A stretch of DNA of 64,000 bases from Melioribacteraceae bacterium (lineage in GTDB: Bacteria > Bacteroidota > Ignavibacteria > Ignavibacteriales > Melioribacteraceae). Both the position numbers and the translations under genes were made by a program. Positions 47,817 through 63,654 of the stretch are shown piece by piece. The stretch lies in contig JALVFE010000016.1 in NCBI GenBank assembly GCA_027030245.1, forward strand, positions 248,001 to 312,000, read 5' to 3'. The number at the start of each line of letters is the position of its first letter. The stretch's first letter is position 1. Under the pieces are notes generated by a model that made no database searches, had not been told where the DNA came from, and saw nothing but the letters and a program-made list of their open reading frames with translations.

Positions 47817-47836
47817 TTCATATCTCCTTAAATTTA

Positions 47837-48154: not shown

Positions 48155-48171
48155 TTTTTTCTCTCCTTTAT

Positions 48172-48867
48172 TTAGTTGTTAATAAATTGTTCTTTATTAT
48201 TTTCGGTTTGCTCTGCTAAACTTTTCAAAAATGTAATTCCGAACGCCAAACCGCGTCTCATTTCCGGAGTATTAAATTGTCTCAAGAGTTTCATGTATGA
48301 AATATCCCCTTCAACTTCGATATCCAATTTTTTATAAACGTTAACCGCATTGTTTATGGCGTGGAGCATATCGGGTTGGGTCAGGTTTTTAATGGTGTTA
48401 AGAATAGTTACAATATTATCTCCCAACGCTTTAACGTCTTCCACGGTGAACGATGTTACTATGTTATCCAGAATGGTGCCGAATTCTTTAAAGAATTGGA
48501 AATAACCTTTCCTGTCGAATTCATCCAATTTGTGCATAAAGTCGATTACTGATTCGCGCGAAATAGGTCCGAAATCCTGCAGAAAATCCTTTAAGCTTTC
48601 GAGCTGATCGAGAGTTTTACTGATGTTGTTTACGTTTCTCAAAAGCTTTTTGGCAAAAGCGAGAATATCGCCGGTGTTAAGCGAGTCGTGAACTTCTTCC
48701 AATTCAACAACGGCGGTTTGGAATAAATCTTTGCCAACGCGCGTGAAATCTTCTTTCAGGTCTTCCATCTCACGTCTGTGACGTCTTTGAAGATCGATTT
48801 CTTCAAGAATTATATCAAGCTTTTTGTTAATATCGTTTATCTGATTTTGAATATTTTTTTCTTCCAT
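48172..48867 (-). CDS. DUF1641 protein
   Basis: A 231-residue cytoplasmic helical protein. A coiled coil at residues 1-50 (KNIQNQINDINKKLDIILEEIDLQRRHRREMEDL) precedes the DUF1641-like region: DILAFAKKLLRNVNNISKTLDQLESL, then LGDNIVTILNTIKNLTQPDMLHAINNAVNVY and PEMRRGLAFGITFLKSL. DUF1641 proteins often lie with SQR-type flavoproteins or formate dehydrogenases; the function is unknown. Lies 2 bases after the flavoprotein gene. Confidence 0.82.
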   Translation of the reverse strand: MEEKNIQNQINDINKKLDIILEEIDLQRRHRREMEDLKEDFTRVGKDLFQTAVVELEEVHDSLNTGDILAFAKKLLRNVNNISKTLDQLESLKDFLQDFGPISRESVIDFMHKLDEFDRKGYFQFFKEFGTILDNIVTSFTVEDVKALGDNIVTILNTIKNLTQPDMLHAINNAVNVYKKLDIEVEGDISYMKLLRQFNTPEMRRGLAFGITFLKSLAEQTENNKEQFINN

Positions 48868-48869
48868 AG

Positions 48870-50099
48870 CTAAACCCTCTTTCCTGCCATGGTCATTTGA
48901 GATTCTATCGGTAATTCTTGACCTTTAAGCAATAAATGCCAATACATCCAACGGAACATTACTTTTCCGTAATGATTCATCTTCGTTTCTTCCAACAGCG
49001 AAAAAGGTCCTATTCCGGGAAGCGGGAATTTCCCGGGAAGCGGTTCGGTGTCGTAATTAAAATCTATCAATATTCCTTTACCGAATCCTGATTCTATGTA
49101 GCAATTGGCGTGACCGTCGAATTTAGCTTTCGGTTCCAAACCGTCTATCACATCGAGAAAGTTTTCGAACAAAATATCCGATTCGAAATGGGCTACCGAA
49201 CCGGCTTTGGAGCTTGGCAAATCAGTTGCATCGCCGATAACGAAAATATTATCGAACCCTTTTGCCATCAGAGTATGTTTGTCGGTCGGTATGAAATTAA
49301 GCTCGTCTCCCATTCCGCTGCGTTCAATTGCTTCATCACCCATATTTGTCGGAATTGTTACAAGAACATCGAACGGGATTTCTTGCTCATCCCAAGAAAC
49401 GATTTTTTTATTTTCATTATCCACACGTGCAATGTTAAATTCGGTTGTAAGCTTAATGTTTTTCTTGTCTAAGAAGTCACCCAAAATAGAAGCGGCGCGG
49501 GGTTTTGTAAATGCACCGGGAAGCGGGGTTACAAAATGAATTTCCACTTTGTCCCTTATTCCCTTTTCGGTAAAAAACCAATCGGCGAGAAAAACAAATT
49601 CCAACGGAGCTACCGGGCATTTTATCGGCATTTCCGTAATGTTTAATACCAGTTTACCGCCTTCCCAGTGTTTGAAGAAATTTCTCAATGCCAAAGCGCC
49701 GTCGATTGTATAAAAATCGAAAATATTCTTATACCAGAGTTCTCCTTTCATTCCTTCCGTTTCTTCCGGGCGGATTTTCGAACCGGTTGCAATTATTAAG
49801 TAATCGTAAGACAACACTTGATTGTTTTTCAGCAACACCCGGTTTTTATCCGGTTCAATTCTATCTATTTCGGACATTACAACGTTTACGCCCGTCGGGA
49901 AGAAATCCCTTTTAGGTTTTATTACATCTTTCTTTGTATATATATCGAATGGTATAAACAAAAATCCGGGTTGGTAATAATGCGTTTCGTATTGATCAAC
50001 TATTGTTATTTGCCATTCGTTTTTATCGAGAACGTTATGTAACTTATTTAGCATCATTGTTCCGGCCGTACCGGCACCGAGTATAAGCAGTTTTCTCAT
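48870..50099 (-). CDS. Sulfide:quinone oxidoreductase-like flavoprotein
   Basis: The 409-residue protein has the FAD motif LLILGAGTAGTMMLNKL at the N-terminus, ATGSKIRPEETEG near residue 104, and VIGDATDLPSSKAGSVAHFES near 287. Cys161 (MPIKCPVAP) and Cys333 (HANCYIE) match the two active-site cysteines of SQR. The C-terminus has an amphipathic stretch (KVMFRWMYWHLLLKG) for membrane contact. SQR oxidises sulfide to polysulfide and reduces quinone; here persulfide could go to the downstream DsrE/TusE-like carriers. It lies 15 bases after the MerR gene. Confidence 0.87.
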   Translation of the reverse strand: MRKLLILGAGTAGTMMLNKLHNVLDKNEWQITIVDQYETHYYQPGFLFIPFDIYTKKDVIKPKRDFFPTGVNVVMSEIDRIEPDKNRVLLKNNQVLSYDYLIIATGSKIRPEETEGMKGELWYKNIFDFYTIDGALALRNFFKHWEGGKLVLNITEMPIKCPVAPLEFVFLADWFFTEKGIRDKVEIHFVTPLPGAFTKPRAASILGDFLDKKNIKLTTEFNIARVDNENKKIVSWDEQEIPFDVLVTIPTNMGDEAIERSGMGDELNFIPTDKHTLMAKGFDNIFVIGDATDLPSSKAGSVAHFESDILFENFLDVIDGLEPKAKFDGHANCYIESGFGKGILIDFNYDTEPLPGKFPLPGIGPFSLLEETKMNHYGKVMFRWMYWHLLLKGQELPIESQMTMAGKRV

Positions 50100-50114: not shown

Positions 50115-50537
50115 TTACGGTAATAATTCTTTTAATTTTTCTTTGATTGATGCACAATTGCCGAAGCTTCTGTAAACTTCGCAAGTTCTGCATTCCCTGT
50201 CTTTGCATACGTTTTTTTTGTGGTTAATCATCCAGCAAGGTTTAGTGTGTCCGCTGTAAAATTCGCAGTGAGCCCTGTCTTCCGCACTGCATTTAACAAT
50301 TGCCCAACAAGGGATTAAGGCAAGCACCCTTCTCATTCCTTCAATATTGATTTTGTCTTCGTTGATGGTTTTCCTAATGCACATCACCCTTTCGATATCG
50401 CGATCGGAGTAAAGTCTTTGGTTACTTGTTTTCTTGAACGGAATAATCAATCCTTCGCGTTCGTACATTCTGAGCGTGGGAACCGAGATTCCCATTAATT
50501 TTGCTGCGGTGCTAATCGTATATTTGGGTTCGTCCAT
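50115..50537 (-). CDS. MerR-family regulator with Cys-rich C-terminus (operon of the SQR-like gene)
   Basis: A 140-residue protein: MerR winged helix at residues 6-55 (YTISTAAKLMGISVPTLRMYEREGLIIPFKKTSNQRLYS) and a nine-cysteine array: Cys53, then 77, 83, 91, 101, 111, 116, 119, 128. The spacing is identical to that of the two other MerR proteins in the window. It could hold a metal or Fe-S cluster, or sense sulfane sulfur. The start at 50537 has GGAAAGGAAA upstream; a TTG 21 bases earlier is possible. It is the first gene of the minus operon and has a dyad in its promoter. Confidence 0.88.
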   Translation of the reverse strand: MDEPKYTISTAAKLMGISVPTLRMYEREGLIIPFKKTSNQRLYSDRDIERVMCIRKTINEDKINIEGMRRVLALIPCWAIVKCSAEDRAHCEFYSGHTKPCWMINHKKNVCKDRECRTCEVYRSFGNCASIKEKLKELLP

Positions 50538-50559
50538 TTTATTTTCCTTTCCGTTCAAA

Positions 50560-50769: not shown

Positions 50770-51030
50770 TAGTAACCTTCCCGTTTTCTTTTGTGGCGTG
50801 TCTTTTTCAATTTTATTTTAACGGGAGCTTTTAATTTAGGAAGCTCGATGTTTTGTTGAGTTGCTTTAGCGCCGGTTTGTGGTTGCCCGCCGAAATATTT
50901 ATTTCCCCTATCTTTTCGAATTCAAGTTTTTCTTGTGGCGTTGCATTAACGCTAAGTTTGGGGAAGAGGATTTTATCTCTCCAACAATTCAAGTTATCTT
51001 CCAAAACATTTATACCTTAATAACCGTTTA
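50770..51030 (-). pseudogene. Truncated, frameshifted copy of the rhodanese-fold protein gene
   Basis: About 260 bases match the 3' part of the gene at 58110-58760, including FPKLSVNATPQEKLEFEKI and the tail RHKRKREG. A four-base deletion near 50904-50910 shifts the frame, the first two-thirds of the gene are missing, and the final Cys codon has become Tyr before the stop. It is a relic of a duplicated or rearranged operon on this side of the plus-strand MerR. Confidence 0.85.
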
Positions 51031-51342
51031 CGTTTAGGTTATAGCATTCCGTATTATATTTATAGTATAAAATATTTTTTTGCTAAAGAGTCATTTTGTA
51101 AAAAATTTTAAGGTATTGCCCCTCTTTAATACTAAATTTTGCAAACACTAATTCCCACATATATTTACCGGGTATAAGTACGTTGGAAAGTATTTAACAG
51201 TTGAAAGTAATAACCAACATACGAAATAAGATACCAATATCCTTTTAGTCTATAAAACAATAAATTTTCCATTTTTTTTCTTGATGTTAATAACCGAATA
51301 ATTAAAATCAACGAATTTAACCGAAAAACCAATAAACCAGAA
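51031..51342. other. AT-rich intergenic DNA
   Basis: No gene is visible between the pseudogene and the MerR promoter block. A weak inverted repeat (ATAACC...GGTTAT, 51022-51044) marks the end of the pseudogene homology. The rest is AT-rich without a recognisable signal. Confidence 0.6.
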
Positions 51343-51385: not shown

Positions 51386-51835
51386 ATGAAAGATTATATA
51401 AACATACCGTCCAACGAACCTATTTTTTCAATTAGTACTGCAGCTAAATTAGTCGGGGTTTCGGTACAAACTTTACGATTATATGAAAAAGAAGGTTTAA
51501 TTATTCCGTTTAGAAAAAAATCAAATCAAAGATTATTCTCGCAAGATGACTTAAAAAGAATCCGTTGTATTCGCTCTACAATCAACGAGAAAAAAATTAG
51601 TATAAATGGAATAAAGTCTCTCTATGCACTCCTTCCTTGCTGGGAAATAGTTAAATGCTCTGACGAGGAACGGAACGTTTGCCCGGCATATTTAGAAAGT
51701 TCTCAACCCTGCTGGAGTTATTCTCATAGCTCAAATGTTTGCAGTACGAGAGAATGCAGAGAATGTGAAGTATACAAAGGAATAGGAAACTGTATTGATG
51801 TTAAAAATCTTATAAAAAAAATCGGCAAAAATTAG
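51386..51835 (+). CDS. MerR-family regulator with Cys-rich C-terminus (plus-strand operon)
   Basis: A 149-residue paralogue of the MerR protein at 50115. The winged helix reads FSISTAAKLVGVSVQTLRLYEKEGLIIPFRKKSNQRLFS. Nine cysteines at 61, 85, 91, 99, 109, 119, 124, 127 and 136 have the same spacing as its paralogues (CWEIVKC, CPAY, PCW, VC, CREC). It heads the operon for the TorD-like chaperone and molybdoenzyme and probably controls it through the dyad just upstream. Confidence 0.9.
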   Translation: MKDYINIPSNEPIFSISTAAKLVGVSVQTLRLYEKEGLIIPFRKKSNQRLFSQDDLKRIRCIRSTINEKKISINGIKSLYALLPCWEIVKCSDEERNVCPAYLESSQPCWSYSHSSNVCSTRECRECEVYKGIGNCIDVKNLIKKIGKN

Positions 51836-51859
51836 GAATTAATGATTAACGGAGAATTT

Positions 51860-52465
51860 ATGGGACAAAAAGAACGTGAAATAATTTATAAAACCTTTTC
51901 GAAATTATGTTATTACCCGGATGAAGAATTAGCCGGTCTGCTAAAGAATGGCGTAATAACCGAATTTTTAATGAGTCTGGACCCTGAGAATAAAGAAATT
52001 CAAAAACTTGAGGAATGGGTTGATTCGTTTAATTCAACAGAAAAGTTGCTTGAAGAACTCCAGGTTGAATATACAAGTTTATTTATCACCAACTTCCCTT
52101 CCGTTCCCGCTCCCATGTTCAAATCATACTATTTCGAAAACGAAATACTTGGTGAGTCGACGGAAAAAATAATGGACATTTATGAACAATATAATTTTAA
52201 GGTTTCCGACTTGATGAAGGAACCTGCCGACCATTTAGCTATTCTGTTGGAATTTATTTATCGAATTATTCAAATCGACAATACTTACTATTTCCAAATA
52301 AAATTTATAAAAGATGAAATACTCAGTTGGATGACCCCCTTCAAGGAAAGCGTGGACTCGGCATCTACAAATGTATTTTATCCGACCACAATCGAAACAA
52401 TTATTAACTATCTCAAAAATGAAGTAACACAATACGAGACTAAATTTGCGGGAGCTGAATTATGA
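51860..52465 (+). CDS. TorD/DmsD-like chaperone for a molybdoenzyme
   Basis: The 201-residue all-helical protein fits the TorD/NarJ chaperone family: REIIYKTFSKLCYYPDEELAGLL at the start, LQVEYTSLFITNFPSVPAPMFKSYYFENEILGESTEKIMDIYEQY in the middle, and PADHLAILLEFIYRII. Such chaperones hold the Tat signal of the catalytic subunit until the cofactor is in. The start at 51860 has GGAGAATTT just upstream; an in-frame ATG at 51842 is less likely. It overlaps the catalytic subunit gene by ATGA. Confidence 0.87.
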   Translation: MGQKEREIIYKTFSKLCYYPDEELAGLLKNGVITEFLMSLDPENKEIQKLEEWVDSFNSTEKLLEELQVEYTSLFITNFPSVPAPMFKSYYFENEILGESTEKIMDIYEQYNFKVSDLMKEPADHLAILLEFIYRIIQIDNTYYFQIKFIKDEILSWMTPFKESVDSASTNVFYPTTIETIINYLKNEVTQYETKFAGAEL

Positions 52466-54804
52466 GTATCTCAAGGCGTGAATTTATAAAGCGCGGTGCG
52501 TTAACGGCTGGAGCTTTAACAATATTATCCGGAACAACCGTTAAAGGATTAAATAAAAAAAATTTTCCTAAGGGTTGGAAGGGTCGCCAACGCGTTAAAG
52601 AAATTCCATCAATCTGCGAAATGTGTTTTTGGCGATGCGGAATTTTAGGAAACGTTGACAAACACGGCAAGTTATTAAAAATTGACGGCAATCCCAATCA
52701 CCCGCTAACCGAAGGCAGACTTTGCGCCAGAGGAAATGCAGGTCACAAACTGGCTTATGACCCCGATAGATTGAAATATCCGCTAATGAGAGTAGGTAAA
52801 AGAGGCGAAGGGAAATTTAAAAGAGTTTCCTGGGATGAAGCTTTGGATTTTATGGCAGAAAAACTGAAAAAAATTAAAGCAGAATACGGCGCAGAAGCCG
52901 TAGGATTCTTCCCGCACGGAATTCAAGCCAGATTCTTTGAACATTTGATGAAAGGTTTCGGCACTCCAAATATTGTGGAACCCGCTTTTGCTCAATGCCG
53001 TGGTTCAAGAGACGTGGGATATAAATTAACTTTTGGTAATTCCGTAGGCTCACCAGAACCTTTGGATTTTGAAAACACTGATTTAATGGTATTCATCGGT
53101 ACGCATATAGGTGAAAATGTGTTTACGGGTCAGAATTTACAATTCGCTAACGCAATTGAAAGAGGCGCAAAATTAATTGTAGTTGACCCGCGTTTTTCTG
53201 TAGCTGCCGCAAAAGCCGATTATTGGCTACCGATAAAACCGGGTACCGATACCGCTTTGTTGTTAGCTTGGATGCATGTATTAATCTATGAAAATCGATA
53301 TGATAAAGAATATATCAGAAAATATGCGATTGGTTTCGATCAATTAAAAAAACACGTGAAAGATTTTACGCCGGAATGGGCTTCAAAAATAACAGGCTTG
53401 CCTGCTTCGTTAATTTTGGATACCGCCCGTGAGATGGGCAAATACTATCCGAAAGTAGGTATTCATCCCGGTAGACATGTTGCCTGGTACGGGAATGATA
53501 GCCAACGTGCAAGAGCAATGGCAATTCTCACGGCGTTGCTGGGAAGTTACGGAAGACCCGGAGGTATTTATCTATCAAGTAAAATTCCGGCACCTAAATA
53601 TCCTTCGGGGAAAAATCCCAAACCCGGACCCCGCGCGGACGGTGCCGGAACAGTTTATCCATTCGGATCCAGAGGACTGGGAATAACAAACGGATTAATT
53701 GATGCTACTTATGACGAAGACCCTTATCCAATTAAAGCATGGATAGTTTACAGTCAGAACGTATTACAAAGCATTCCGGATCCTTGGAAAACAAAGGAGG
53801 CAATAGACAAACTCGATTTGTTTGTTGTTGTTGATATTATGCCTATGGAACAGTATTTATATGCCGATCTTGTTTTACCCGAAGCAACTTATTTGGAAAG
53901 GTACGACGACCTTTATACCGTGAAAAATGCTAAAAAGCCATTTGCGGCAATCAGACAACCAATTATCGATCCTCTATACGAAGCAAAACCAGGCTGGTGG
54001 ATCGCTAAAGAAACAGCAAAACGTTTAGGTTTGGAAGAACATTTTCAATGGGAAACAATAGAAGAATATTTAGATTATAGATTATCCGGACTCGGAAAGA
54101 CTTTACAACAAGTACAAGCAAAAGGAATTGTAGTTTACGATAAGGGAACACCGTATTATGACTTTTCCAAACCGATTCATTTTAAAACAAGAAGCGGTAA
54201 AATTGAACTTTATTCCCAAACTCTGAAAGATTATGGATTCGACCCGATGCCGGTTTATGAACCGGTTGAGGAAGTACCAAAAGGATATTTCAGATTAACT
54301 TACGGACGTTCACCCGTTCACTCTTTCGCCCGCTCTCAAAACAACGAGATACTTCACGGTTATATGCCCGAAAACGAATTATGGATAAACAGCACTGTAG
54401 CAAATCAATTGGGATTATCGGACGGGGAATATGTTAGATTAGAAAATCAAGACGGAATTTTAAGTAACAACATCAGATTAAAAGTAACCCCCGGAATTCA
54501 TCCGGAAGCGGTATTTATGGTTCACGGGTTCGATCAGAAATCGCCCGCTTTACGTTTGGCATATAAACACGGAGCTTCCGATAATTACTTGATGAGCCGG
54601 GTAAATATCGATCCGCTTTCAGGAGGTACCGGAATGAGAGTAAACTTTGTAAGGATTATTAAAAACGGTCAACCTGTTATGGTAAGCGGAGCCGAAAGCA
54701 TAGTTCCAAAATTCAAAAAAAATACAAAAACCAGAACACCGAAAAAACGCATTGTAGTTCCCCAAGCTGCAACGGAAGCCGGTGAATCGGAAGAAGGATG
54801 CTAA
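52462..54804 (+). CDS. Molybdopterin oxidoreductase catalytic subunit (polysulfide/thiosulfate reductase type)
   Basis: A 780-residue Tat-exported enzyme. The twin-arginine signal is SRREFIK at residues 4-10. The proximal 4Fe-4S motif uses Cys52, 55, 59 and 88, and the molybdenum ligand is probably Cys179 in AFAQC, as in PsrA/PhsA. LIVVDPRFS and KPGTDTALLLAWMH are typical MopB segments, and the C-terminal cofactor-binding domain has NQLGLSDGEYVRLENQDG. It ends in an added tail PKKRIVVPQAAT...ESEEGC not present in its paralogue (61444). It likely reduces polysulfide, sulfur or thiosulfate in the periplasm; the substrate is inferred. Confidence 0.9.
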   Translation: MSISRREFIKRGALTAGALTILSGTTVKGLNKKNFPKGWKGRQRVKEIPSICEMCFWRCGILGNVDKHGKLLKIDGNPNHPLTEGRLCARGNAGHKLAYDPDRLKYPLMRVGKRGEGKFKRVSWDEALDFMAEKLKKIKAEYGAEAVGFFPHGIQARFFEHLMKGFGTPNIVEPAFAQCRGSRDVGYKLTFGNSVGSPEPLDFENTDLMVFIGTHIGENVFTGQNLQFANAIERGAKLIVVDPRFSVAAAKADYWLPIKPGTDTALLLAWMHVLIYENRYDKEYIRKYAIGFDQLKKHVKDFTPEWASKITGLPASLILDTAREMGKYYPKVGIHPGRHVAWYGNDSQRARAMAILTALLGSYGRPGGIYLSSKIPAPKYPSGKNPKPGPRADGAGTVYPFGSRGLGITNGLIDATYDEDPYPIKAWIVYSQNVLQSIPDPWKTKEAIDKLDLFVVVDIMPMEQYLYADLVLPEATYLERYDDLYTVKNAKKPFAAIRQPIIDPLYEAKPGWWIAKETAKRLGLEEHFQWETIEEYLDYRLSGLGKTLQQVQAKGIVVYDKGTPYYDFSKPIHFKTRSGKIELYSQTLKDYGFDPMPVYEPVEEVPKGYFRLTYGRSPVHSFARSQNNEILHGYMPENELWINSTVANQLGLSDGEYVRLENQDGILSNNIRLKVTPGIHPEAVFMVHGFDQKSPALRLAYKHGASDNYLMSRVNIDPLSGGTGMRVNFVRIIKNGQPVMVSGAESIVPKFKKNTKTRTPKKRIVVPQAATEAGESEEGC

Positions 54805-54859
54805 AAATGAAACTTAAAATAAATAGTAATTGCATAATCAGATTAATAACGGAGGTGAA

Positions 54860-55591
54860 ATGGCTCGATATGCTATGGTGATCGATTTACGTAAATGTGT
54901 TGGATGCGACGCTTGTACGGTAGCCTGCCGCACCGAATGGGATGTTCCTATTGGTCACGCAAGGACGTGGGTCGAGCAATCCGTAACGGTTGGAGAATTT
55001 CCAAACGTTTCAGGAACAAATTGGGTTGCTCAATGTAACCATTGCGACGAACCGTCGTGCATCGAACCTTGTCCTACAGGCGCTACCTTTCAACTAAAAA
55101 ACGGAATAGTCAAAGTTGATACCGATCTTTGTATCGGTTGCGGTTATTGCGTAGAGGCTTGTCCGTACGATGCAAGATATATAAATCCATTAACAAATAA
55201 AGTAGATAAGTGCGACTTCTGTGAAGCCCGACTGGAAGAAGGATTACAACCTGCATGCGTTACAACTTGCACCGGCGATGCAAAATTCTTCGGCGATTTG
55301 GAAGATCCGAACAGTGAAGTATACAAAAAAGTATACGAAGAAGGTGCATGGAGAAACGAAAACGATAACGCTGCAATTGGTCCAAATGTTTATTACTTGG
55401 GAACGCCCGAACAGTTGGAGATTGTCAAAGAAAAATTTGGACCTCGGGAACCACGGTTGTTACCTCCTGCACAAGCATGGAAAAATATTCTTAAACCTGT
55501 GGTTTTAACCGCTATTGGAGCTACTTTTGCGGGACAAGCAGTAGCCTTTTTTAATCAGTTAAGAAAAGGGGAGGAACCGATAGATGACTAA
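54860..55591 (+). CDS. 4Fe-4S electron-transfer subunit (PsrB/PhsB type)
   Basis: The 243-residue protein has four cubane motifs of the PsrB/DmsB kind: CVGCDACTVAC (residues 13-23), CNHCDEPSCIEPCP, CIGCGYCVEACP, and CDFCEARLEEGLQPACVTTC. A C-terminal hydrophobic helix (VVLTAIGATFAGQAVAFF) may anchor it, an unusual extra against the 179-residue paralogue. The start at 54860 has GGAGGTGAA upstream. It carries electrons between the membrane subunit and the molybdoenzyme. Confidence 0.92.
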   Translation: MARYAMVIDLRKCVGCDACTVACRTEWDVPIGHARTWVEQSVTVGEFPNVSGTNWVAQCNHCDEPSCIEPCPTGATFQLKNGIVKVDTDLCIGCGYCVEACPYDARYINPLTNKVDKCDFCEARLEEGLQPACVTTCTGDAKFFGDLEDPNSEVYKKVYEEGAWRNENDNAAIGPNVYYLGTPEQLEIVKEKFGPREPRLLPPAQAWKNILKPVVLTAIGATFAGQAVAFFNQLRKGEEPIDD

Positions 55592-57065
55592 TATTACTGT
55601 ATGCCAGCTTGAAAAGGCGCTAAACTATTTCGACCACCCACCGGAACTTACTGCATCCGAAAAAGATGTGATGCGTCAACGTAAAATGAAAAAGCACGAT
55701 GTTGCCATAATATTAGTCCATTGGTTTAACGCCATCACCTGGATTTTTATGTTAATTACGGGAGCTGCTTTAATCGTTTCGGGATTGTACAAATTTGCTC
55801 CCGACTTTTTCATTAATATAGTCAGAGGAATGTTTGAAACTCCCGGCAATTTGATAGAATTTCATATTTGGCTGGGTGTTATTTGGATTGTGGTTTTTAT
55901 GGCTTATACGATATTCGGTTATAGAAAATATCTACGAAAACAAAGTCTTAAAGAAATACCAATTAACAAATCCAAAGATATCTTTGATAAACTCAAAGCT
56001 GTACAGTGTGTATTGTTCGGTAATCCGGCATTATGTTTAGATAAAAAAGATTTTCTATGGCTGAAAATAAGACTACTGGGAATACTCGGCTTATCCGACG
56101 AACCTTTACCACCGCAAGGTTCATTCAACGCGGGACAAAAATTATACGGGTTATTAGTTGCCTTAATGACACCGGTTATAATGTTAACCGGCGTAATAAT
56201 GGCTTTTCATATTGGACCTTTGTGGCTAATACAATGGTCAATACCAATTCACTTCACTGCAGTCGGATTAGTAGTATCCGGTTTATTGATTCATGTTTAC
56301 ATGGGTGCGGTTTTCCCCGAAGAAAAACCTGCTTTCTTTTCTATGATAACCGGAAATGTGAGTGAATTGTTTTTATATAAACATCACTTTGAATATTGGA
56401 AGGAACGAATAGTTAAACAATGTGAGTGGCGTAAGAAAACCGACCCGGATGTAACTTTAACCGACATTCTACCAAATTCCCTCGCCGAAAAAGTACTGAA
56501 AAAAGTTGAAGAACTAGGCGACTTGGGAAAGGAATCCGAGAAACCAAAAGAAATACAACCGGAAAAATTTTGGAACCCTTATTTTGCGGGGTTTATGCTT
56601 GGTTTATTATTCCTGTTTACATATTTCGTTTATGGTAGAGGTTTGGGAGCTTCAAGCTTTCTCTCAAGAACAGGCACTTATTTATGGAATTTAGTTGCAC
56701 CTGAATATGTTCATTCTCATCCTTATTGGTCAAGATATTTCCACAACGGACATACTCCTTTAGGTAATTTTATGATATTCGAAGTACTCGGGGTAATTAT
56801 CGGTGCATATTGGTCAAGTAAAAAAGCCAGAAGAGCAAAAATAGAAATTCATAAAGGTCCGGGAATATCTAATAAAGTTAGAATATTTATGGCATTTGCG
56901 GGCGGTATTTTAATGGGACTCGGTGCAAGAATTGCCCGGGGTTGTACCAGTGGTCAAGGACTTACGGGAGGTATCACCCTTTCGGTAGGAGCATGGTTAT
57001 TTGTCTTTGTGGCTATTGGTATCGGTTATTTTAGTGCATACATTTTTAGGAGGTACTGGTTATGA
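55584..57065 (+). CDS. Cytochrome b / YeeE-YedE fusion membrane protein
   Basis: The 493-residue protein joins two membrane units. Residues 1-290 look like a formate-dehydrogenase gamma-type cytochrome b: about four helices with candidate heme histidines His46 (VHWFNA), His94 (EFHIWL), His223 (PIHFTA) and His237 (LIHVYM). Residues 330-493 are a YeeE/YedE half-transporter with GRGLGASS and the RGCTSGQGLTGG motif (Cys454). In the paralogous operon the anchor (NrfD) and this YeeE half are separate genes. It probably takes electrons from quinol for the molybdoenzyme and links this to transport of a sulfur species. It overlaps the 4Fe-4S gene by 8 bases and the next by ATGA. Confidence 0.88.
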   Translation: MTNITVCQLEKALNYFDHPPELTASEKDVMRQRKMKKHDVAIILVHWFNAITWIFMLITGAALIVSGLYKFAPDFFINIVRGMFETPGNLIEFHIWLGVIWIVVFMAYTIFGYRKYLRKQSLKEIPINKSKDIFDKLKAVQCVLFGNPALCLDKKDFLWLKIRLLGILGLSDEPLPPQGSFNAGQKLYGLLVALMTPVIMLTGVIMAFHIGPLWLIQWSIPIHFTAVGLVVSGLLIHVYMGAVFPEEKPAFFSMITGNVSELFLYKHHFEYWKERIVKQCEWRKKTDPDVTLTDILPNSLAEKVLKKVEELGDLGKESEKPKEIQPEKFWNPYFAGFMLGLLFLFTYFVYGRGLGASSFLSRTGTYLWNLVAPEYVHSHPYWSRYFHNGHTPLGNFMIFEVLGVIIGAYWSSKKARRAKIEIHKGPGISNKVRIFMAFAGGILMGLGARIARGCTSGQGLTGGITLSVGAWLFVFVAIGIGYFSAYIFRRYWL

Positions 57066-57694
57066 TTGCACCTATTTTTAAGCAAATTTCAGTTAGTATA
57101 GAATTTCAATACTTTTTGGCAATTCTTATTGGTATCGCATTCGGTTACATATTGGAGAGAGCAGGATTCGGAAACGCAAGAAAAATTGCAGCGGAATTTT
57201 ATTTTGATGATTTCACGATGATAAAAGTGTTTTTCACAACTTTAATTGTGGGGAGCGCAGGTTTATTATTTCTCAATTGGTTCGGGTGGTTAGACTTAGA
57301 TAAAATCTTTATACCAAGGACGTATATTTGGGGACAGTTTGTCGGTGGCATCGTTTTGGGTGCAGGATTCGGCGTCGGGGGTTATTGTCCGGGAACCAGT
57401 ATGGTTTCGGCTGCTTCCGGCAAGTTGGACGGAATGGCGTTTGTTGCGGGCGCTTTTGTCGGTACAATGTCCTTCGGTGATATATTTTACGATTGGCTTA
57501 AAGATATTTATATGGGCGGTGCAATGGGTAGAATTACATTACCGGAATTCTTAGGATTAAATCCCGGAGTTGTAGTATTTCTGGTTATTTTAATGGCGTT
57601 AGGTACTTTTTGGATTGCCGAGAAAATTGAAAACGGTAAATGGGACCCGTATAAAAAATTCAGAAAGGAACCCAGAAAAATCATCGAAAGGTAA
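57062..57694 (+). CDS. YeeE/YedE family sulfur transporter, second half
   Basis: A 210-residue membrane protein of about five helices: FGYILERAGFGNARKIAAEFYFDDFTMIKVFFT and the motif GGYCPGTSMVSAASGKLDG. It is the partner of the YeeE half fused to the cytochrome b. In YeeE/TsuA transporters, cysteines in such motifs pass thiosulfate across the membrane. The ATG overlaps the previous stop. The paralogue is at 58762-59364. Confidence 0.88.
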   Translation: MIAPIFKQISVSIEFQYFLAILIGIAFGYILERAGFGNARKIAAEFYFDDFTMIKVFFTTLIVGSAGLLFLNWFGWLDLDKIFIPRTYIWGQFVGGIVLGAGFGVGGYCPGTSMVSAASGKLDGMAFVAGAFVGTMSFGDIFYDWLKDIYMGGAMGRITLPEFLGLNPGVVVFLVILMALGTFWIAEKIENGKWDPYKKFRKEPRKIIER

Positions 57695-57740
57695 AACTTA
57701 GATAGTTTACCTTTCAACATTTATTTAACGGAGAACTAAA

Positions 57741-58019
57741 ATGCATAACGATAGTAATAATTCAAAACTCAAACAAATTTCGGCTATTGTTGCTTTGGTT
57801 TTGGGATTAATTTTAGCAATCGGTTACCCAACCGGCGGTGTAAAAGCCGATAAAGAAGTTAATGAACAAATTGTTACCCATAAAAATTTTGTAACGCATC
57901 CTCAAAATAACAACGTAAAAAAACCAATCGTAAAAAAAGAGAAACCCAAAAAGAAGAGGGTTATACCTATTGCTCCACAACCCGGAAATGCTGAAGAATC
58001 GCAAGACGAAGGCTGTTGA
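57741..58019 (+). CDS. Small membrane-anchored protein with Gly-Cys tail
   Basis: A 92-residue protein: one hydrophobic helix (residues 12-28, AIVALVLGLILAIGYP) ending in PTGGV, a polar stretch, a Lys/Pro-rich region (KKEKPKKKRVIPIAPQ) and an acidic end ...EESQDEGC. The helix plus G.P.GGV and the basic-then-GC end match the two ends of the rhodanese-fold protein at 58110, as if its middle domain were absent. The C-terminal part also matches the tail of the catalytic subunit in the same operon. Family unknown. AACGGAG lies before the ATG. Confidence 0.75.
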   Translation: MHNDSNNSKLKQISAIVALVLGLILAIGYPTGGVKADKEVNEQIVTHKNFVTHPQNNNVKKPIVKKEKPKKKRVIPIAPQPGNAEESQDEGC

Positions 58020-58048
58020 CTATTAATTTATCTAATAGGCTTTTAATA

Positions 58049-58086
58049 AAAAAGTGTAATCCGACCATGTACGGATTACACTTTTT
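58049..58086. terminator. Bidirectional terminator between convergent sulfur operons
   Basis: AAAAAGTGTAATCCG (58049-58063) and CGGATTACACTTTTT (58072-58086) form a 15-base perfect stem with an 8-base loop. A run on one side and T run on the other make it work in both directions, between the genes ending at 58019 and 58110. Confidence 0.93.
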
Positions 58087-58109
58087 AAATATTCAAAAAC
58101 AAATCTAGG

Positions 58110-58760
58110 TCAACAACCCTCACGTTTTCTTTTGTGGCGTGTCTTTTTCAATTTGATTTTAACGGGAGCTTTTAACTTTGGAAGCTCAACATTTCTTTGG
58201 GTTGCTTTAGCGCCGGTTTGAGGCTGACCGCCGAAGTATTTACTTATTTCCGCAATCTTTTCGAATTCAAGTTTTTCTTGAGGCGTTGCATTAACGCTAA
58301 GTTTGGGAAATAAAATTTTATCCCTCCAACTATTCAAACCACCTTCCAAAACATGAACACTTTTATAATCATCGGCTTTTAGAATAAACCATCCTTGAGC
58401 TGCGGTAAATTCGTCGTTATCGTACAAAATAATTTTTTCATTACGCATCAAATCCGAATCCAACAATTTGGAAATGGGAATACATTCCGATGTGGGAATA
58501 TTATATTTATCGAATTCTTCCGGCTTACGTAAATCAACCAATCTGTAATCATATTTTCCGTCTATAATCCACCGGGCTAAATCTTTTACATCTATTTTAT
58601 CATTATTTGTAGAAGCAGTAATGGCAAGGTCTTTCAAGTTAACGTGTCTATAAACTCCGCCTGCCGGATCACCGATAAATGCAGCAAGGAACCCTAATAA
58701 GATTGCAAGAATTCCAACTCTCTTACGCGGAGGATATTCCGCAAATTTCTTTAGCATCAT
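58110..58760 (-). CDS. Membrane-anchored rhodanese-fold protein lacking the catalytic Cys, with Gly-Cys tail
   Basis: A 216-residue protein: N-terminal helix (residues 15-30) after a basic start RKR, so the rest should be periplasmic; a rhodanese fold at about 58-150 (RLVDLRKPEEFDKYNIP...VHVLEGGLNSW); a linker; a basic end ...KTRHKRKREGC. The active-site loop after KIILY reads DNDEFTAAQ, with Asp114 where Cys is expected. The only cysteines are Cys93 and the terminal Cys216. The start at 58760 has GGAGGG upstream. It is the last gene of the minus operon. A broken copy lies at 50770. Confidence 0.83.
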   Translation of the reverse strand: MMLKKFAEYPPRKRVGILAILLGFLAAFIGDPAGGVYRHVNLKDLAITASTNNDKIDVKDLARWIIDGKYDYRLVDLRKPEEFDKYNIPTSECIPISKLLDSDLMRNEKIILYDNDEFTAAQGWFILKADDYKSVHVLEGGLNSWRDKILFPKLSVNATPQEKLEFEKIAEISKYFGGQPQTGAKATQRNVELPKLKAPVKIKLKKTRHKRKREGC

Positions 58761-58761
58761 T

Positions 58762-59364
58762 TTATTTTCCCTCCGATCTTTTTTTGGCAACTACTTTTTC
58801 GCCCCATTCTACCAATGTAAAACCGGCAATAGCGATAAGAATTACAACCGAAAGTACAAAACCGTAACTGACATCAAAGAATTGCGGCAAATTAACTTTT
58901 CCCATGTGTGTGGAATAGAAGAAATCTTTAATTGCGGGAAACATTTCCCCGAATACGAAAATTCCGAAAAACCCGCCTAAAGCATAAAATATAGCATCGA
59001 TTTTTCCCGTAGCTATTGCAACTCCGGAAGTTCCCGGGCAGTACCCGCCAATTACAAATCCGATACCCAAAATCAAACCGCCGAGAGCTTGCGGCAGCAA
59101 ATAAGTATCTCCGTAATAAACAAGGGATAAATCCAAAAATCCAAACCAAGCAAGGTAAAATAATCCGATCATTGCGGTTACTATTGCGGTAAACATCACT
59201 TTGAATACGCGCATATCGGTGAAATAGAATTGAGCGGCTAACATTCTTCCGCTGCCGAAACCGCCCCTTTCCAATACGAAGCCGAAAAACAATCCGATAA
59301 CAAAAGCAATAATTAAACTGACTTCGTCATTAAAAAAACCGAATTTATAAAATGGTGCTGTCAT
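58762..59364 (-). CDS. YeeE/YedE family sulfur transporter, second half (minus operon)
   Basis: A 200-residue membrane protein: FGFVLERGGFGSGRMLAAQFYFTDMRVFKVMFT and GGYCPGTSGVAIATGKIDA match the paralogue at 57062. The start at 59364 makes an ATGA overlap with the gene before it, with GGAGG eight bases upstream; a longer frame reaching 59484 would run through the previous gene and is not supported. Works with the half at 59361. Confidence 0.88.
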   Translation of the reverse strand: MTAPFYKFGFFNDEVSLIIAFVIGLFFGFVLERGGFGSGRMLAAQFYFTDMRVFKVMFTAIVTAMIGLFYLAWFGFLDLSLVYYGDTYLLPQALGGLILGIGFVIGGYCPGTSGVAIATGKIDAIFYALGGFFGIFVFGEMFPAIKDFFYSTHMGKVNLPQFFDVSYGFVLSVVILIAIAGFTLVEWGEKVVAKKRSEGK

Positions 59365-59936
59365 ATCCATTGCCTCCTTACAAAATAAGCTGTTGCGTAA
59401 GCGCCGGCGAAAACCATCAGCATAAATGCCCATCCGCCCAGACTTAAAGCGGCTCCGCCGGTAAGACCTTGTCCGCTGGTACATCCGCGAGCCATTTTTG
59501 CCCCGAAGCCCATCAAGGTTCCACCGATGAAGGCAAATAAAAATCTTTTTTTGTTTGTAAATCGCGGACCCTTTTCTACAATTAGTTTATTTCTTCCGGC
59601 TATAGCACCGGAAATAAATCCGCCGACGACCAATCCTATAACTTCAAATACAAGCCAATCTTTAAATGGGCTTTGTGTTCCGTCTCCCAAATAACCTTTG
59701 TAAAAATCATTATTTTCTACCGTGGAAGGCGAAACCGTATCTACTCCTACAGCTACAACCGTACTCAGCGCGCCCGAAGCGCCCAATCCCCTTCCCATAA
59801 TCACAAACGTTGCGAGGAGAACAATGCCAAGTAAAAGTCCGATAAGATACGGATTCGTATAGTGATACGGTGTAAGTTCTCCTTCCCTAACGTTATCTTC
59901 GAGATGATGAGTAAACCATTCTTTAAATTTGAACAT
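59361..59936 (-). CDS. YeeE/YedE family sulfur transporter, first half (minus operon)
   Basis: A 191-residue membrane protein with GRGLGASGALS, GPRFTNKKRFLFAFIGGTLMGFGAKMARGCTSGQGLTGGAALSLGGWAF. It is the stand-alone counterpart of the C-terminal part of the cytochrome b fusion (55584). A cysteine in RGCTSGQ is expected in the transport path. Lies 12 bases after the NrfD gene. Confidence 0.88.
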   Translation of the reverse strand: MFKFKEWFTHHLEDNVREGELTPYHYTNPYLIGLLLGIVLLATFVIMGRGLGASGALSTVVAVGVDTVSPSTVENNDFYKGYLGDGTQSPFKDWLVFEVIGLVVGGFISGAIAGRNKLIVEKGPRFTNKKRFLFAFIGGTLMGFGAKMARGCTSGQGLTGGAALSLGGWAFMLMVFAGAYATAYFVRRQWI

Positions 59937-59948
59937 TTTTATACTCCG

Positions 59949-60893
59949 TTAATTAGTTAAAACATACCAATGGCTGTATTGACCTGCGGCAACAATTACA
60001 AATCTTAAAATTAAGCCGCCTATAATCACCATAATAGGCGCAATTGGTGTATGGTGAATTTTATGGTTTACGGCCAACAATTGTATAAAAAGCGGAATCA
60101 CTATTCCCATTCCGATAACAAAAACCCAAAAAACAGCAGCATATTTCCCTGTCATTAACAAATCTAAAGCTTTAGCGTGTACATCGGAATTGCTTGATAG
60201 CCCGATTAAAAAAACCGTAATGATAAATAATTCCAAAATTAAAAATGCGTTATCCGATTTTGCGAGGAGCTCTCTTTCGTAAACGTTCTTTGCAATTAAG
60301 TGGACAAAAGCCGCTGCGCTCGAAAGTCCGGAGACCAAAAATAAAAGCCATAAAATTGATGAACTCCAGAGCGGTCGTGCACCGAGGGAACTCAACAGAA
60401 CGCCGGTATACATACCGATAGCGGCACCGAAAAACATCGAAACAACGCCAAGATATTTTATTAGCATCGGTTTACTGTGTAAATACTCATGCCATTTTTT
60501 TACATGCGGAATCTTTTCCAATAAAAGCCGGTGAGGTCTCATTAACATACTGGCAAATAAAATAGGATAAACCAAAACCAAGATCCATGAGCCCCACGAC
60601 ATTGGTGAAGTAATTTGAAATGTTGTATAAAGTCGCCAGACATAAGGTTTATGTTCCAAATCCAAAAACAATGCAAACATTCCAAGCGAAAGTAAAAGGA
60701 AACTCATTATCGGCAAATAGTAGCATGAACAGTTAGTTTCCTTGTATCTGCCGCTGAAGAGGAAATACCCGGAAATTAACATCATTCCGGCTACCATACC
60801 GCCCAAGAAAAGGTAGACCGGTATTTCCCAACCCCAGATATGCAATGACGGATCGATCAAATGATTATGCCGTGTTGTTGTAATTTCAATCAT
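59949..60893 (-). CDS. NrfD/PsrC-type membrane anchor
   Basis: The 314-residue protein has about eight helices. NrfD/PsrC features: WGWEIPVYLFLGGMVAGMMLISGYF near the start, LFLDLEHKPYVWRLYTTFQITSPMSWGSWILVL near residue 75, and MYTGVLLSSLGARPLWSSSILWLLFLVSGLSSAAAFVHL. PsrC exchanges electrons with quinones and has no heme. Two ATGs and one TTG lie together at the start; 60893 has AGGAG at the best distance. It replaces the cytochrome b of the plus operon. Confidence 0.9.
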   Translation of the reverse strand: MIEITTTRHNHLIDPSLHIWGWEIPVYLFLGGMVAGMMLISGYFLFSGRYKETNCSCYYLPIMSFLLLSLGMFALFLDLEHKPYVWRLYTTFQITSPMSWGSWILVLVYPILFASMLMRPHRLLLEKIPHVKKWHEYLHSKPMLIKYLGVVSMFFGAAIGMYTGVLLSSLGARPLWSSSILWLLFLVSGLSSAAAFVHLIAKNVYERELLAKSDNAFLILELFIITVFLIGLSSNSDVHAKALDLLMTGKYAAVFWVFVIGMGIVIPLFIQLLAVNHKIHHTPIAPIMVIIGGLILRFVIVAAGQYSHWYVLTN

Positions 60894-60902
60894 CATCAAC
60901 TC

Positions 60903-61442
60903 CTAAATTAAATAAAATATATTGGGCTTCGTTCCCGCTTCCGGTAATAACGAATGATGTTTGCGGGAATTCAATAATTTACTTACTTCACTGTTTGGAT
61001 CATCCAAATCACCGAAGTGCATGCAATGCGTCGGGCATACAGATACGCAAGCCGGATCCAAACCTTCTTCAACTCTGTGAACGCAGAATGTACATTTATC
61101 AACGTAACCTTCCGGGTGAACAAATCTGGCATCATACGGACAAGAAGCAATGCAAGCTTTACACCCAATACATTCGTTATGATCAACCAAGACAATACCA
61201 CCGACATCATGAAAATGACTTGCGCCGGTCGGGCATGCCGTTACGCACGGGGCATCCGAACAATGGTTACATCTTTCCGATCGTATTTCAAGTTGCGTAT
61301 TTGGAAATTTCCCGGTGGCTACTTGTTTTATCCAGTCTCTGGCATAACCTTCCGGTACGTTGTTTTCCGTTTCGCACGCCACTACGCAATCTGCACAGCC
61401 AACGCATTTTGCGGTATCTATCACCATTCCGAATCTTGCCAT
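60903..61442 (-). CDS. 4Fe-4S electron-transfer subunit (PsrB type, minus operon)
   Basis: A 179-residue protein with four 4Fe-4S motifs: CVGCADCVVAC (residues 14-24), CNHCSDAPCVTACP, CIGCKACIASCP and CTFCVHRVEEGLDPACVSVC. It lacks the C-terminal hydrophobic helix of its paralogue at 54860. GAGGCATAAA precedes the ATG and the gene follows the catalytic subunit by one base. Confidence 0.93.
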   Translation of the reverse strand: MARFGMVIDTAKCVGCADCVVACETENNVPEGYARDWIKQVATGKFPNTQLEIRSERCNHCSDAPCVTACPTGASHFHDVGGIVLVDHNECIGCKACIASCPYDARFVHPEGYVDKCTFCVHRVEEGLDPACVSVCPTHCMHFGDLDDPNSEVSKLLNSRKHHSLLPEAGTKPNIFYLI

Positions 61443-61443
61443 T

Positions 61444-63654
61444 TTATGCCTCCGTCTCGAATGTTACAAAATTTACGTTCATTCCAGTTCCTCCCATTAA
61501 AGGATCGACTTTGTATTTTGTAATCAATTGCGAATCGCTTGCACCTTTTAAGTAAGCGCCTTTCAGCATCCTTGCATTGTGTCCGAATCCGTGAACAATA
61601 TATACACAATCCGTTCTGATTCTCTCTGTTGCTTTAATTCTCACTTTGTTGCTCAATACCCCGTCTTGATTTTTTAATCTAACATACTCACCGGGTTTTA
61701 AGCCTAATCTTTTAACAACATCGGCGTTAACCCAAACTTCATTTTCATCCATAACATTATTTAACAATCTATTTGTTTGAGTTCGACTGAACGAGTGCAT
61801 CGGGGCACGACCGAATAATAATCTGAAGTATCCCGGAGGCGGGTCTTCGTGTTTGGTAAATTTCGGAATCGGGTCGAATCCCTTTTCGGCTAAAATTGTC
61901 GAATACAATTCGATTTTACCTGTCGGTGTTTCAAATTCCGGCTCAAACCCTTCTTCGATGTATAGAGGAATTTTGGGACCTTTAATAACGCCTTTCTTTT
62001 TCAATTCAGCTAAACTTAGTCCGGCTAATTTTAACCTTGTATCAAGATATTCTTCAATATTTTTCCACGGGAAATATTTTTGCAATCCTAATTTTTCCCC
62101 TAATTTTTTAGCGATCCACCAACCAGGTTTTTGATCGTGTGGCGGATCAACTACCGGTTGCCTTATGGAAACAAATGGTTGTTTAAAATATGGAGCAAAT
62201 AAATCGTCGTACCTTTCTAGATAGACCGCTTCGGGCAAAACCACATCGGCGTACCCGGCAATTTCGCTCGGTACAACATCAATTACAACCAACAAATCAA
62301 GCTTTTGGATTGCATCTATTGTTTCTTGTGTATTAGGCAACGAATAAAGAATATTAGTACCGTAAACAAACCAACCTTTAATCGGGTAAGGATTTTCCGT
62401 AAGAGTTGCTTCTCTTAATCCGGTAGTATAACCTTCCGCACCTCCGAAAGGATATTTTCCTCCGGGATTATCGGCTCTTTCCCGTTCCGGTTTGGGATAA
62501 GGAGGATACGGATAAGACGGTATATCAAAAACATCTTGGTTGGTTAAACCGCCTTTTCTGCCCCAGCTTCCGATTAAAGCATTGATTATAGCAAGGGCTC
62601 TACCCCTTTGTGTATCATCACCGTACCAAACGGAATGTCTTCCCGGATGAACTAACGTATGGGGGATATATCTTGCAATTTCGTGCGCGGTTTCTCTGAT
62701 TAATTCCGGCTCAATACCCGTAATCGGATAAGCCCATTCGGGTGTGTATCCGCTAACTGCGGCTTTCAGTTGTTCAAATCCGAATGTATATTTTTCTACG
62801 TAATCTTTATCGTACAGATTTTCCGAAATCAATATGTTAATCCACGTAAGCAGCAATGCCAAATCCGTTCCGGGTTTAATAGGCAGATAATATTTTGCTT
62901 TTGTAGCTGCGGTTGACATACGCGGATCAACAACAATAATCGATGCACCCCTTTCGACCGCTTTGGAAAATTCTTGCACTTGTGTGTTGTGCATGTTTTC
63001 GCCGATGTGGGAACCGAACAAAACAATGCACTCGGCATTTTCTATATCCGTACGTTCCGGTCCGCCTACAACATCGCCGTAGGTAATTTCGAATGCTGTG
63101 TCTCTCGGTCCCAGACATTGATCGAACGAAGGAGCCGCAATATTTCTCGTTCCATAAGCTTTTAAGAGATGCTTGAAAAATCCACCGCCGATACCATGAC
63201 TGAAGAACCCAATGGATTCCGGCCCGTATTCATTCTTAATTTTATTCATTTTTTTAGCGATGTAATCCAGAGCTTCATCCCAAGTAACTTGAACCCATTT
63301 TTCTTCGCCCCTTTCGCTTTTACGGATAAGCGGAGCTTTCAATCTATCGGGATCGTAATGGGCGCCAACGCCGCCCGTACCGCGCGGGCAAAGTCTTCCG
63401 TTGCTTAACGGATCTTCCGGATTACCTTCTATTTTCCACAATTTACCGTCTTTAACATAAGCTATCGCGCTGCATTTCCAGAAACACATACTGCAATACG
63501 TCGGGATTTTTTGAATCCCCTTAACTTGCTTTCCGGTTTTTTCTTCGATTTTTTTAGCACCTTTCACAATTCCGCTTGCAGAAGAAAGAGCTGCAGTGGC
63601 AACTATCGAAGCTCCGGAAATTTTTAAGAATCTCCTTCTGGATAAATATGCCAT
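61444..63654 (-). CDS. Molybdopterin oxidoreductase catalytic subunit (minus operon)
   Basis: A 736-residue paralogue of the enzyme at 52462. The Tat signal is SRRRFLK (residues 5-11), the 4Fe-4S cysteines are 54, 57, 61 and 89, and the probable Mo ligand is Cys180 (SFDQC). The segments LIVVDPR-like SIIVVDPRMSTAATKAKYYLPIKPGTDLALLL and the final VNFVTFETEA are aligned with the paralogue, but the added basic-acidic tail is absent. Together with PsrB- and NrfD-type partners it forms a standard polysulfide/thiosulfate-reductase complex; the direction (reductase or oxidase) and substrate are not certain. Confidence 0.9.
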   Translation of the reverse strand: MAYLSRRRFLKISGASIVATAALSSASGIVKGAKKIEEKTGKQVKGIQKIPTYCSMCFWKCSAIAYVKDGKLWKIEGNPEDPLSNGRLCPRGTGGVGAHYDPDRLKAPLIRKSERGEEKWVQVTWDEALDYIAKKMNKIKNEYGPESIGFFSHGIGGGFFKHLLKAYGTRNIAAPSFDQCLGPRDTAFEITYGDVVGGPERTDIENAECIVLFGSHIGENMHNTQVQEFSKAVERGASIIVVDPRMSTAATKAKYYLPIKPGTDLALLLTWINILISENLYDKDYVEKYTFGFEQLKAAVSGYTPEWAYPITGIEPELIRETAHEIARYIPHTLVHPGRHSVWYGDDTQRGRALAIINALIGSWGRKGGLTNQDVFDIPSYPYPPYPKPERERADNPGGKYPFGGAEGYTTGLREATLTENPYPIKGWFVYGTNILYSLPNTQETIDAIQKLDLLVVIDVVPSEIAGYADVVLPEAVYLERYDDLFAPYFKQPFVSIRQPVVDPPHDQKPGWWIAKKLGEKLGLQKYFPWKNIEEYLDTRLKLAGLSLAELKKKGVIKGPKIPLYIEEGFEPEFETPTGKIELYSTILAEKGFDPIPKFTKHEDPPPGYFRLLFGRAPMHSFSRTQTNRLLNNVMDENEVWVNADVVKRLGLKPGEYVRLKNQDGVLSNKVRIKATERIRTDCVYIVHGFGHNARMLKGAYLKGASDSQLITKYKVDPLMGGTGMNVNFVTFETEA

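Follow-up and report, generated by a model that had tools for sequence, protein, structure and literature searches.

Sulfur import via YeeE-type pores is poorly understood (PMC11582611). YeeE/TsuA with YeeD/TsuB, SoxT and PmpAB share one pore family, PF04143. The relay described for YeeE runs from C293 through C91 to C22, the first to third cysteines, and then to C17 of YeeD, the fourth, on the cytoplasmic side (PMC11073785); the separate halves PmpA and PmpB retain C293 and C91 (PMC11582611). Among sulfur carriers, SoxY bears its carrier cysteine in a GGCGG motif (PMC6067878), and DsrC, which is cytoplasmic in A. vinosum, has a penultimate cysteine that was persulfidated in vitro (PMC3397948). 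A hand-over from the SoxY cysteine into the SoxT channel has been called 'conceivable' but was questioned by the same authors (PMC11582611). Here, we analysed a 64,000-nucleotide stretch of the genome of a Melioribacteraceae bacterium (contig JALVFE010000016.1, positions 248,001 to 312,000, forward strand; hereafter the window), in which three proteins of one sulfur island end in Glu-Gly-Cys. We find that such proteins, encoded beside split YeeE pores in several phyla, end in an almost invariant cysteine, which is probably a hook for sulfur between enzyme and pore.

An operon of this kind has been described in Ca. Thermonerobacter as psrABC-DUF395-rhodanese, with its last gene called a rhodanese-related sulfurtransferase and with psrABC relatives in Melioribacter roseus and Ignavibacterium album (PMC6338057). 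Judged by its genes and their sequence along the DNA (psrABC, two Sulf_transp domains and a rhodanese, with MerR before them), it corresponds to our type A, and section 22 of that paper, where it is described, makes no mention of a missing catalytic cysteine or of a terminal-cysteine tail. Sections of papers on sulfur disproportionation and cable bacteria show other YeeE clusters and Psr operons (PMC12998232, PMC12142623, PMC13047784). In the open-licence literature, we found no paper joining YeeE, a rhodanese and a C-terminal cysteine, nor a title or abstract start naming such a tail.

Four types of operon are distinguished below. In type A, only a rhodanese-fold protein is tailed; in types B and C the molybdenum catalytic subunit (MopB) is tailed as well as a partner protein; and in type D the tail ends a fusion of a YeeE half with a rhodanese domain. 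A C-terminal arm with a glycine-flanked cysteine close to its end is shared with SoxY, whose arm reads GGCGG; type D ends mostly in GGC or GGC plus one residue and type A in EGC. The arm here differs in its bearers, which are a degenerate rhodanese anchored in the membrane, a transmembrane anchor alone, one of the YeeE halves or the Mo enzyme, and in that its cysteine is usually the last residue. A SoxYZ system was rejected as an explanation: PF13501 was unmatched in the own genome and gave one sub-threshold match in 58 genomes (own included), in a search in which 0/14 controls were positive and whose sensitivity is unproven. DsrC/TusE has a flexible C-terminal arm with a GC end in common with these proteins but a different fold (PF04358, unmatched by the three tailed proteins), in place of which there is here a rhodanese fold or none, together with a membrane anchor. 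With rhodanese-like sulfurtransferases (PF00581; 6mxv, 3nhv) the fold and sequence family are shared, but the catalytic cysteine is absent in 70/72 rows of our alignment. YeeD acts on the cytoplasmic side, whereas the arm described here would act on the outer side. The best reading of these likenesses is that the arm may work as those of SoxY and DsrC do, while belonging to neither family.

A conserved terminal cysteine beside split YeeE pores

The translations of the window confirm all three tails. MopB of the type B operon (52462–54804, +) ends ESEEGC, a small membrane protein (57741–58019, +) ends ESQDEGC, and the rhodanese-fold protein of the type A operon (58110–58790, −) ends KRKREGC; the paralogous type A MopB (61444–63654, −) lacks the tail, as the first-pass annotation had stated. 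That annotation had also seen a shared region ahead of the first two tails, and here a similar style is evident (PKKRIVVPQ... in MopB, PKKKRVIPI... in the small protein) but no strict motif. Its coordinates for the rhodanese-fold protein are corrected: the open reading frame (ORF) reaches 58790, with an ATG start at about 58757.

The tail is not a general tag of this genome (3.8 Mb in 40 contigs, with the window in contig C16). The DNA pattern GARGGNTGYTRR, i.e., EGC plus stop with TGG also allowed, matched 15 times, compared with 24 times for the same pattern reversed, so the DNA string is not enriched. The only plausible genes among the 15 were the three of the island; five of the other 12 matches close ORFs of 21, 27, 28, 42 and 60 amino acids, the last lying antisense within a 346-amino-acid ORF, and seven close no ORF of at least 15 amino acids. 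A genome-wide EGC tag was rejected on these grounds, and we regard conservation among orthologs as the stronger proof.

For type A, the GTDB genome collection was scanned with the rhodanese alignment, using peptide patterns that excluded the tail, which gave 76 loci. Three of these (L075, L094, L111) have a rhodanese gene cut by a contig end, and 72 of the 73 complete copies end in [E/D/Q]GC. The 71 tails read directly comprise 69 EGC, one DGC (L077) and one QGC (L102); the remaining tailed copy (L056) ends KKKEGC, and the sole complete copy without a tail (L058) loses its frame before it. Among nearer relatives, for which 30 loci were read out of 64 genomes with any match, 30/30 end in EGC, window included. 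The sets L007–L036 and L037–L112 share some genomes, as do L187–L207 and L208–L237, and their counts are not additive. Record titles of the type A loci name Ignavibacteria, Kapaibacterium, Acidobacteria, Gemmatimonadetes, Opitutaceae, Myxococcales, Eisenbacteria and one gammaproteobacterial metagenome-assembled genome; since nearly all of these genomes are metagenome bins, isolated odd placements may be binning errors.

The codons beneath the tail vary freely. Across 71 loci, the last glycine is encoded by GGT, GGC, GGA and GGG in 21, 21, 13 and 16 cases and the cysteine by TGT and TGC in 33 and 38, and the stops TAA, TAG and TGA are used 17, 19 and 35 times. This variation shows selection at the protein level, and a DNA-level or terminator artefact was therefore rejected. 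A general property of the operon's proteins was likewise rejected: a cysteine at the last two positions occurs in 0/264 complete ORFs of four sister subunits (MopB 0/61, YeeE1 0/70, Fe-S 0/66, NrfD 0/67) and in 1/69 unfused YeeE2 ORFs (L049, which ends in Cys).

The tail is also the only part of the protein with a conserved cysteine. The catalytic position of the rhodanese domain, set by alignment with 6mxv as that following the Tyr of a beta strand, holds Ser in 51 of 72 rows, Gly in 11, Ala in five, Asp in two (the window protein has Asp), Cys in two and Thr in one, and a further column, one before it, holds Cys in 3/72. The terminal cysteine column, by comparison, is filled in 72/72 rows and the next best cysteine column in 6/72, and of the 64 type A sequences counted (out of 71; fusions and L068 were left out), 51 have no cysteine besides the terminal one in their last 200 residues. 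Going by these alignments, the type A domain has mostly lost the catalytic cysteine and the terminal one is the only one conserved, so the protein is not an additional sulfurtransferase bearing a tail. That the window protein has the rhodanese fold is supported by its PF00581 match (7.3e-14) and by a Foldseek search with its AlphaFold2 model, which matched rhodaneses. The model has a predicted local distance difference test score (pLDDT) of 86.9 overall and of 60–70 in the last 35 residues, and beyond its final helix shows no secondary structure except a two-residue bridge; between the FGG motif and the C-terminus, the linker measures 34–76 residues in 62 sequences.

The order MopB-FeS-NrfD-YeeE1-YeeE2-rhodanese is complete in 59/59 loci that hold MopB, the other 17 type A loci being cut fragments of consistent partial order, and MerR is the scored gene immediately preceding MopB in 30 of the 59. 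Wherever a locus extends far enough on either side, the arm gene adjoins YeeE halves, and in some cases it is fused to one; six type A loci encode YeeE2 and the tailed rhodanese in a single ORF. All the YeeE halves of the window belong to PF04143 and have their pore cysteine, which in type A is present in 70/70 YeeE1 and 74/74 YeeE2 sequences (at least 45% identical to the window proteins). The split halves match the C293 and C91 segments of the solved S. thermophila YeeE: type A YeeE1 aligned with the Cys293 segment (E 1.6e-9) and type A YeeE2 gave a weak phmmer match at the Cys91 segment (E 0.0035), an alignment in which the inner C22 site of the window YeeE2 falls on a residue other than cysteine. 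In the type B cytochrome b561-YeeE fusion, RGCTSG aligned with the outer-cysteine segment.

Tailed molybdenum enzymes and octaheme cytochrome operons

The type B MopB of the window matches the Thermus thermophilus protein 2vpw over residues 4–740 (phmmer, 760 bits, E 2.9e-227). This entry is deposited as a thiosulfate reductase, and we take it to be the polysulfide reductase PsrA; the PhsA profile gave 540 bits, under its equivalog cut-off of 694. By sequence comparison, the Mo catalytic subunit is a homologue of PsrA. Since the match ends at residue 740, the last 40 residues are an extension (residues 741–780; 54682–54801, +), basic-Pro-acidic in character and ending in EGC, and E778, G779 and C780 are invariant in an eight-row alignment of type B and type C MopB. 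The tailed type B MopB and the small protein co-occur in the same six of 97 genomes (small protein matches at E ≤ 2.6e-5), where, window included, MopB ends EGC in 6/6 and the small protein DEGC in 6/6. The first-pass annotation had named a lack of conservation in orthologous operons as a refutation of its proposal; with these counts and the 72/73 of type A, the tails are conserved, which speaks in its favour. What changes is the balance among the bearers, in that it is primarily the rhodanese-fold protein accompanying split YeeE pores, in several phyla, that has the tail, and the catalytic-subunit form is rarer, seen in types B and C only.

Pfam shows no rhodanese domain in the small type B protein, whose last residue is its single cysteine. 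Its anchor, aligned in six proteins against 52 type A N-termini, reached mean scores of 27.5–34.0, a level attained by 0–3 of 200 shuffles and by none of 108 other hydrophobic segments, of which the best scored 25.7. It looks, on these alignments, like a type A protein minus its rhodanese domain.

Type C was found in three genomes (G076, G080 and G078). Its MopB is tailed in 3/3, ending AIKEGC or AIREGC, and so is the last gene product, a rhodanese-like protein ending TIKEGC, AIKEGC or AVREGC (3/3); this protein matches PF00581 in L178, the one scanned, and the type C sequences have no cysteine in the active-site loop. The two tails of one operon look alike in types B and C, and tails differ between types. 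This likeness within operons, read from few independent cases, is suggestive only. In a further locus (L238, 5628–6924), the bodies of two tandem rhodanese-like genes have diverged, and their tails, which end KKKKKRKPEGGC and KKKKKKKPEGGC, are almost identical.

In a tree of 35 MopB sequences, which left out L180 and L092, the eight tailed proteins of types B and C all lie on one side of a branch with 100/99 support; several origins of the MopB tail are consequently unsupported. A search of 395 genomes of the phylum with the tailed-MopB alignment gave 44 matches from 43 genomes, all at E ≤ 1e-200, and among those whose end was read (13 rows were unread and L272 is cut by a contig end) the only tailed MopB was the own type B one.

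Type D operons consist of an octaheme cytochrome, cytochrome b561, YeeE1 and a YeeE2-rhodanese fusion, the cytochrome belonging to the tetrathionate reductase family TIGR04315 (591 bits in L187). All 19 fusions read end in GC or GC plus one residue, mostly as GGC and sometimes as GGCG, GGCA, GGCS or GGCT. Their conserved cysteines are the two at the CPGT motif (19/19 and 18/19) and the terminal one (19/19), with none in the rhodanese loop. When the phylum was searched with the type D alignment, 50 of 296 genomes had matches; in the 30 loci read from these, 30/30 have a GC or GC-plus-one tail on a YeeE-linked rhodanese, in L234 in a broken frame. Twelve related stretches comprise nine with an octaheme cytochrome (L241–L249), two with a Mo enzyme and NrfD (L238, L240) and one that is too short (L239). 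The AlphaFold2 model of a type D fusion is of low confidence (pLDDT 60.7), with a disordered tail and a poorly modelled YeeE half.

In L187 (156–6228), the octaheme cytochrome (TIGR04315), cytochrome b561 and YeeE genes are accompanied by an ExtM-like cytochrome that scores below the model cut-off; ExtM is a cytochrome of selenite/tellurite reduction operons. As selenoprotein forms are on record for YeeE (GUxSG, cf. the YeeE1 cysteine site) and for TIGR04315 (PMC13188914), selenium chemistry is possible for this operon.

Gene layout of the window and its surroundings

The two operons of the window are convergent and meet at 58.0–58.1 kb. The type B operon (+) runs from a MerR gene through a TorD-type chaperone (51842–52465; PF02613, 1.1e-20; TorD family matches below the equivalog cut-off), the tailed PsrA/PhsA-like MopB with its Tat-type (twin-arginine translocation) N-terminus, and an Fe-S subunit (54830–55591; PF13247, TtrB/NrfC-like) to a cytochrome b561-type subunit fused to a YeeE1-type half with the outer pore cysteine (55584–57065; PF01292, PF04143), a YeeE2-type half with the CPGT cysteine (57062–57694; PF04143) and the small membrane-anchored arm protein. 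On the opposite strand, the type A operon encodes the untailed MopB (PhsA-type profile, below its cut-off), an Fe-S subunit (60903–61442) identified by ferredoxin-type cysteine motifs and its conserved place in the gene order, an NrfD-type membrane subunit (59949–60899; TIGR03148, 1.1e-29, below its cut-off), YeeE1 with the cysteine of RGCTSG (59361–59936; PF04143), YeeE2 with that of CPGT (58762–59484; PF04143) and the arm protein, which has one transmembrane anchor, the rhodanese fold and a variable linker.

A decayed copy of the type A rhodanese lies at 50775–51046 (−), adjoining a MerR gene; its frames are broken, it is 93% identical over query residues 183–225, and its tail region is readable and ends EGY. 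In the same-genus genome L187, an intact type A operon stands at the matching place, directly before MerR-SQR-DUF1641-DsrC-DsrE (SQR, sulfide:quinone reductase), and the window copy at 58–64 kb may therefore have been moved or duplicated.

Two MerR-type regulators with Cys-rich C-termini flank the island (50115–50558, −, and 51386–51835, +) and are possible sulfur sensors. Adjoining it (47331–50099, −) are sulfur-relay genes of cytoplasmic type, namely a DsrE2-like protein, a DsrC/TusE protein (47837–48154, matching PF04358 and ending PKPKGCV), a DUF1641 protein and a type III SQR (NF049943, 681 bits), whose products are possible acceptors behind the pore. A 365-amino-acid protein at 46148–47245 (−) had no Pfam match at E 0.001, and relatives about 53% identical to it are encoded close to these same genes of sulfur metabolism in L038, L051, L071 and L186.

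A candidate periplasmic sulfur arm

Given the conservation of the terminal cysteine and its constant company, we favour, with moderate confidence, a periplasmic swinging arm whose terminal cysteine carries sulfane sulfur between a respiratory sulfur enzyme and the split YeeE pore. The cysteine would be loaded with sulfane sulfur, as a persulfide or thiosulfonate. The membrane-anchored arm would take or return sulfur at the enzyme, either a Mo enzyme of polysulfide/thiosulfate-reductase type (the substrate being predicted) or a haem enzyme, and would meet the outer pore cysteine, with the dead rhodanese domain as docking platform; in this role it would match, on the periplasmic side, the 'fourth cysteine' that YeeD provides on the cytoplasmic one. 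Both the sulfur loading and the partners are inferred. Read by eye, positive residues before the anchor and a Tat-type signal of the Mo enzyme suggest a periplasmic orientation, and for the direction of transport our guess, from the known function of YeeE, would be import of sulfane sulfur, not export. The arm occurs on a rhodanese-fold protein, a bare anchor, a pore half or an enzyme, which suggests that the arm, and not the rhodanese fold, is the working part. The first-pass proposal of a flexible, DsrC-like arm with a terminal cysteine beside the YeeE pore fits the conservation data, and its sulfur carriage stands as a prediction; the observation behind it has been confirmed and extended, and its interpretation as a sulfur arm is partly supported, plausible and now sharper. 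A precedent is the metallopterin-dependent ergothioneine synthase, for which it has been proposed that a persulfide relay on a protein supplies the metallopterin enzyme; it differs in that a fused cysteine desulfurase domain provides the sulfur and in its product, ergothioneine (PMC9516567).

Several observations weigh against a sulfur-carrying arm. The residues before GC differ strongly by type (KKKREGC, DEEGC, KRVIGGC), so that no common docking site is evident across types, and none of the AlphaFold2 models contains a docked tail, residues 384–396 of the type D fusion having pLDDT below 50. A few copies could be active rhodaneses, having a cysteine at or near the catalytic position (at it in three of the 30 nearer relatives, L012, L017 and L030). 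No TusA match in the own genome passes the cut-off, the best one scoring 21.6 bits, and an atom-by-atom hand-over of sulfur through the YeeE channel has been doubted, the pore cysteines being about 7 Å apart (PMC11582611).

Among other explanations, the one that survives best is a disulfide tether, in which the terminal cysteine of the MopB tail and that of its membrane partner would hold the Mo enzyme beside the pore. The paired tails of types B and C, alike within an operon, speak for it, as do the nearly identical KKKPEGGC tails of the tandem rhodanese-like proteins in L238. In the type A and D operons read, however, the tail is found only on the rhodanese-fold protein or fusion and on no enzyme subunit, which means that the arm must work without a matching tail, and type D has its tailed domain already joined to half of the pore in one chain; we consider a tether improbable. 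A regulatory role, in which the dead rhodanese and its tail would gate the pore or sense its redox state and carry no sulfur, would suit genes that adjoin YeeE halves wherever flanking DNA suffices, some of them fused, but types B and C also have a tail on their catalytic Mo subunit, which is hard to reconcile with gating alone, and we think this explanation quite unlikely. A C-terminal thiolate can bind metals, and the GC end might thus be a ligand to a metal site or to the haem of a partner; the arm alignments hold one conserved cysteine and no conserved histidine, however, and the same arm pairs with two unrelated redox enzymes, Mo and octaheme, so that a ligand role seems very unlikely. 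Least probable of all is a sorting or attachment signal recognised for modification, e.g., with lipid or by envelope linkage: a short conserved end preceded by a variable linker is characteristic of such signals, but only three genes of the genome were found to carry it, all in one sulfur island, their products are already anchored or within a complex, the charge of the residues ahead of GC changes from type to type, and type D sometimes has one residue past the cysteine.

Beyond a sulfur-carrying arm, we tentatively put forward a wider proposal, rating its chances at a little below even. These proteins would form an unrecognised class of periplasmic arms for split YeeE pores, in which the rhodanese domain gave up its catalytic cysteine and the role moved to the end of the tail, and some Mo enzymes gained an arm of their own; enzyme, carrier and pore would then be one machine, with the arm cysteine as an outer 'zeroth cysteine' ahead of those of the pore. 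As most of them lack the catalytic cysteine, genes annotated as rhodanese sulfurtransferases in such operons would need renaming. With a terminal cysteine beside two pore cysteines in several phyla, these operons offer a compact, testable case.

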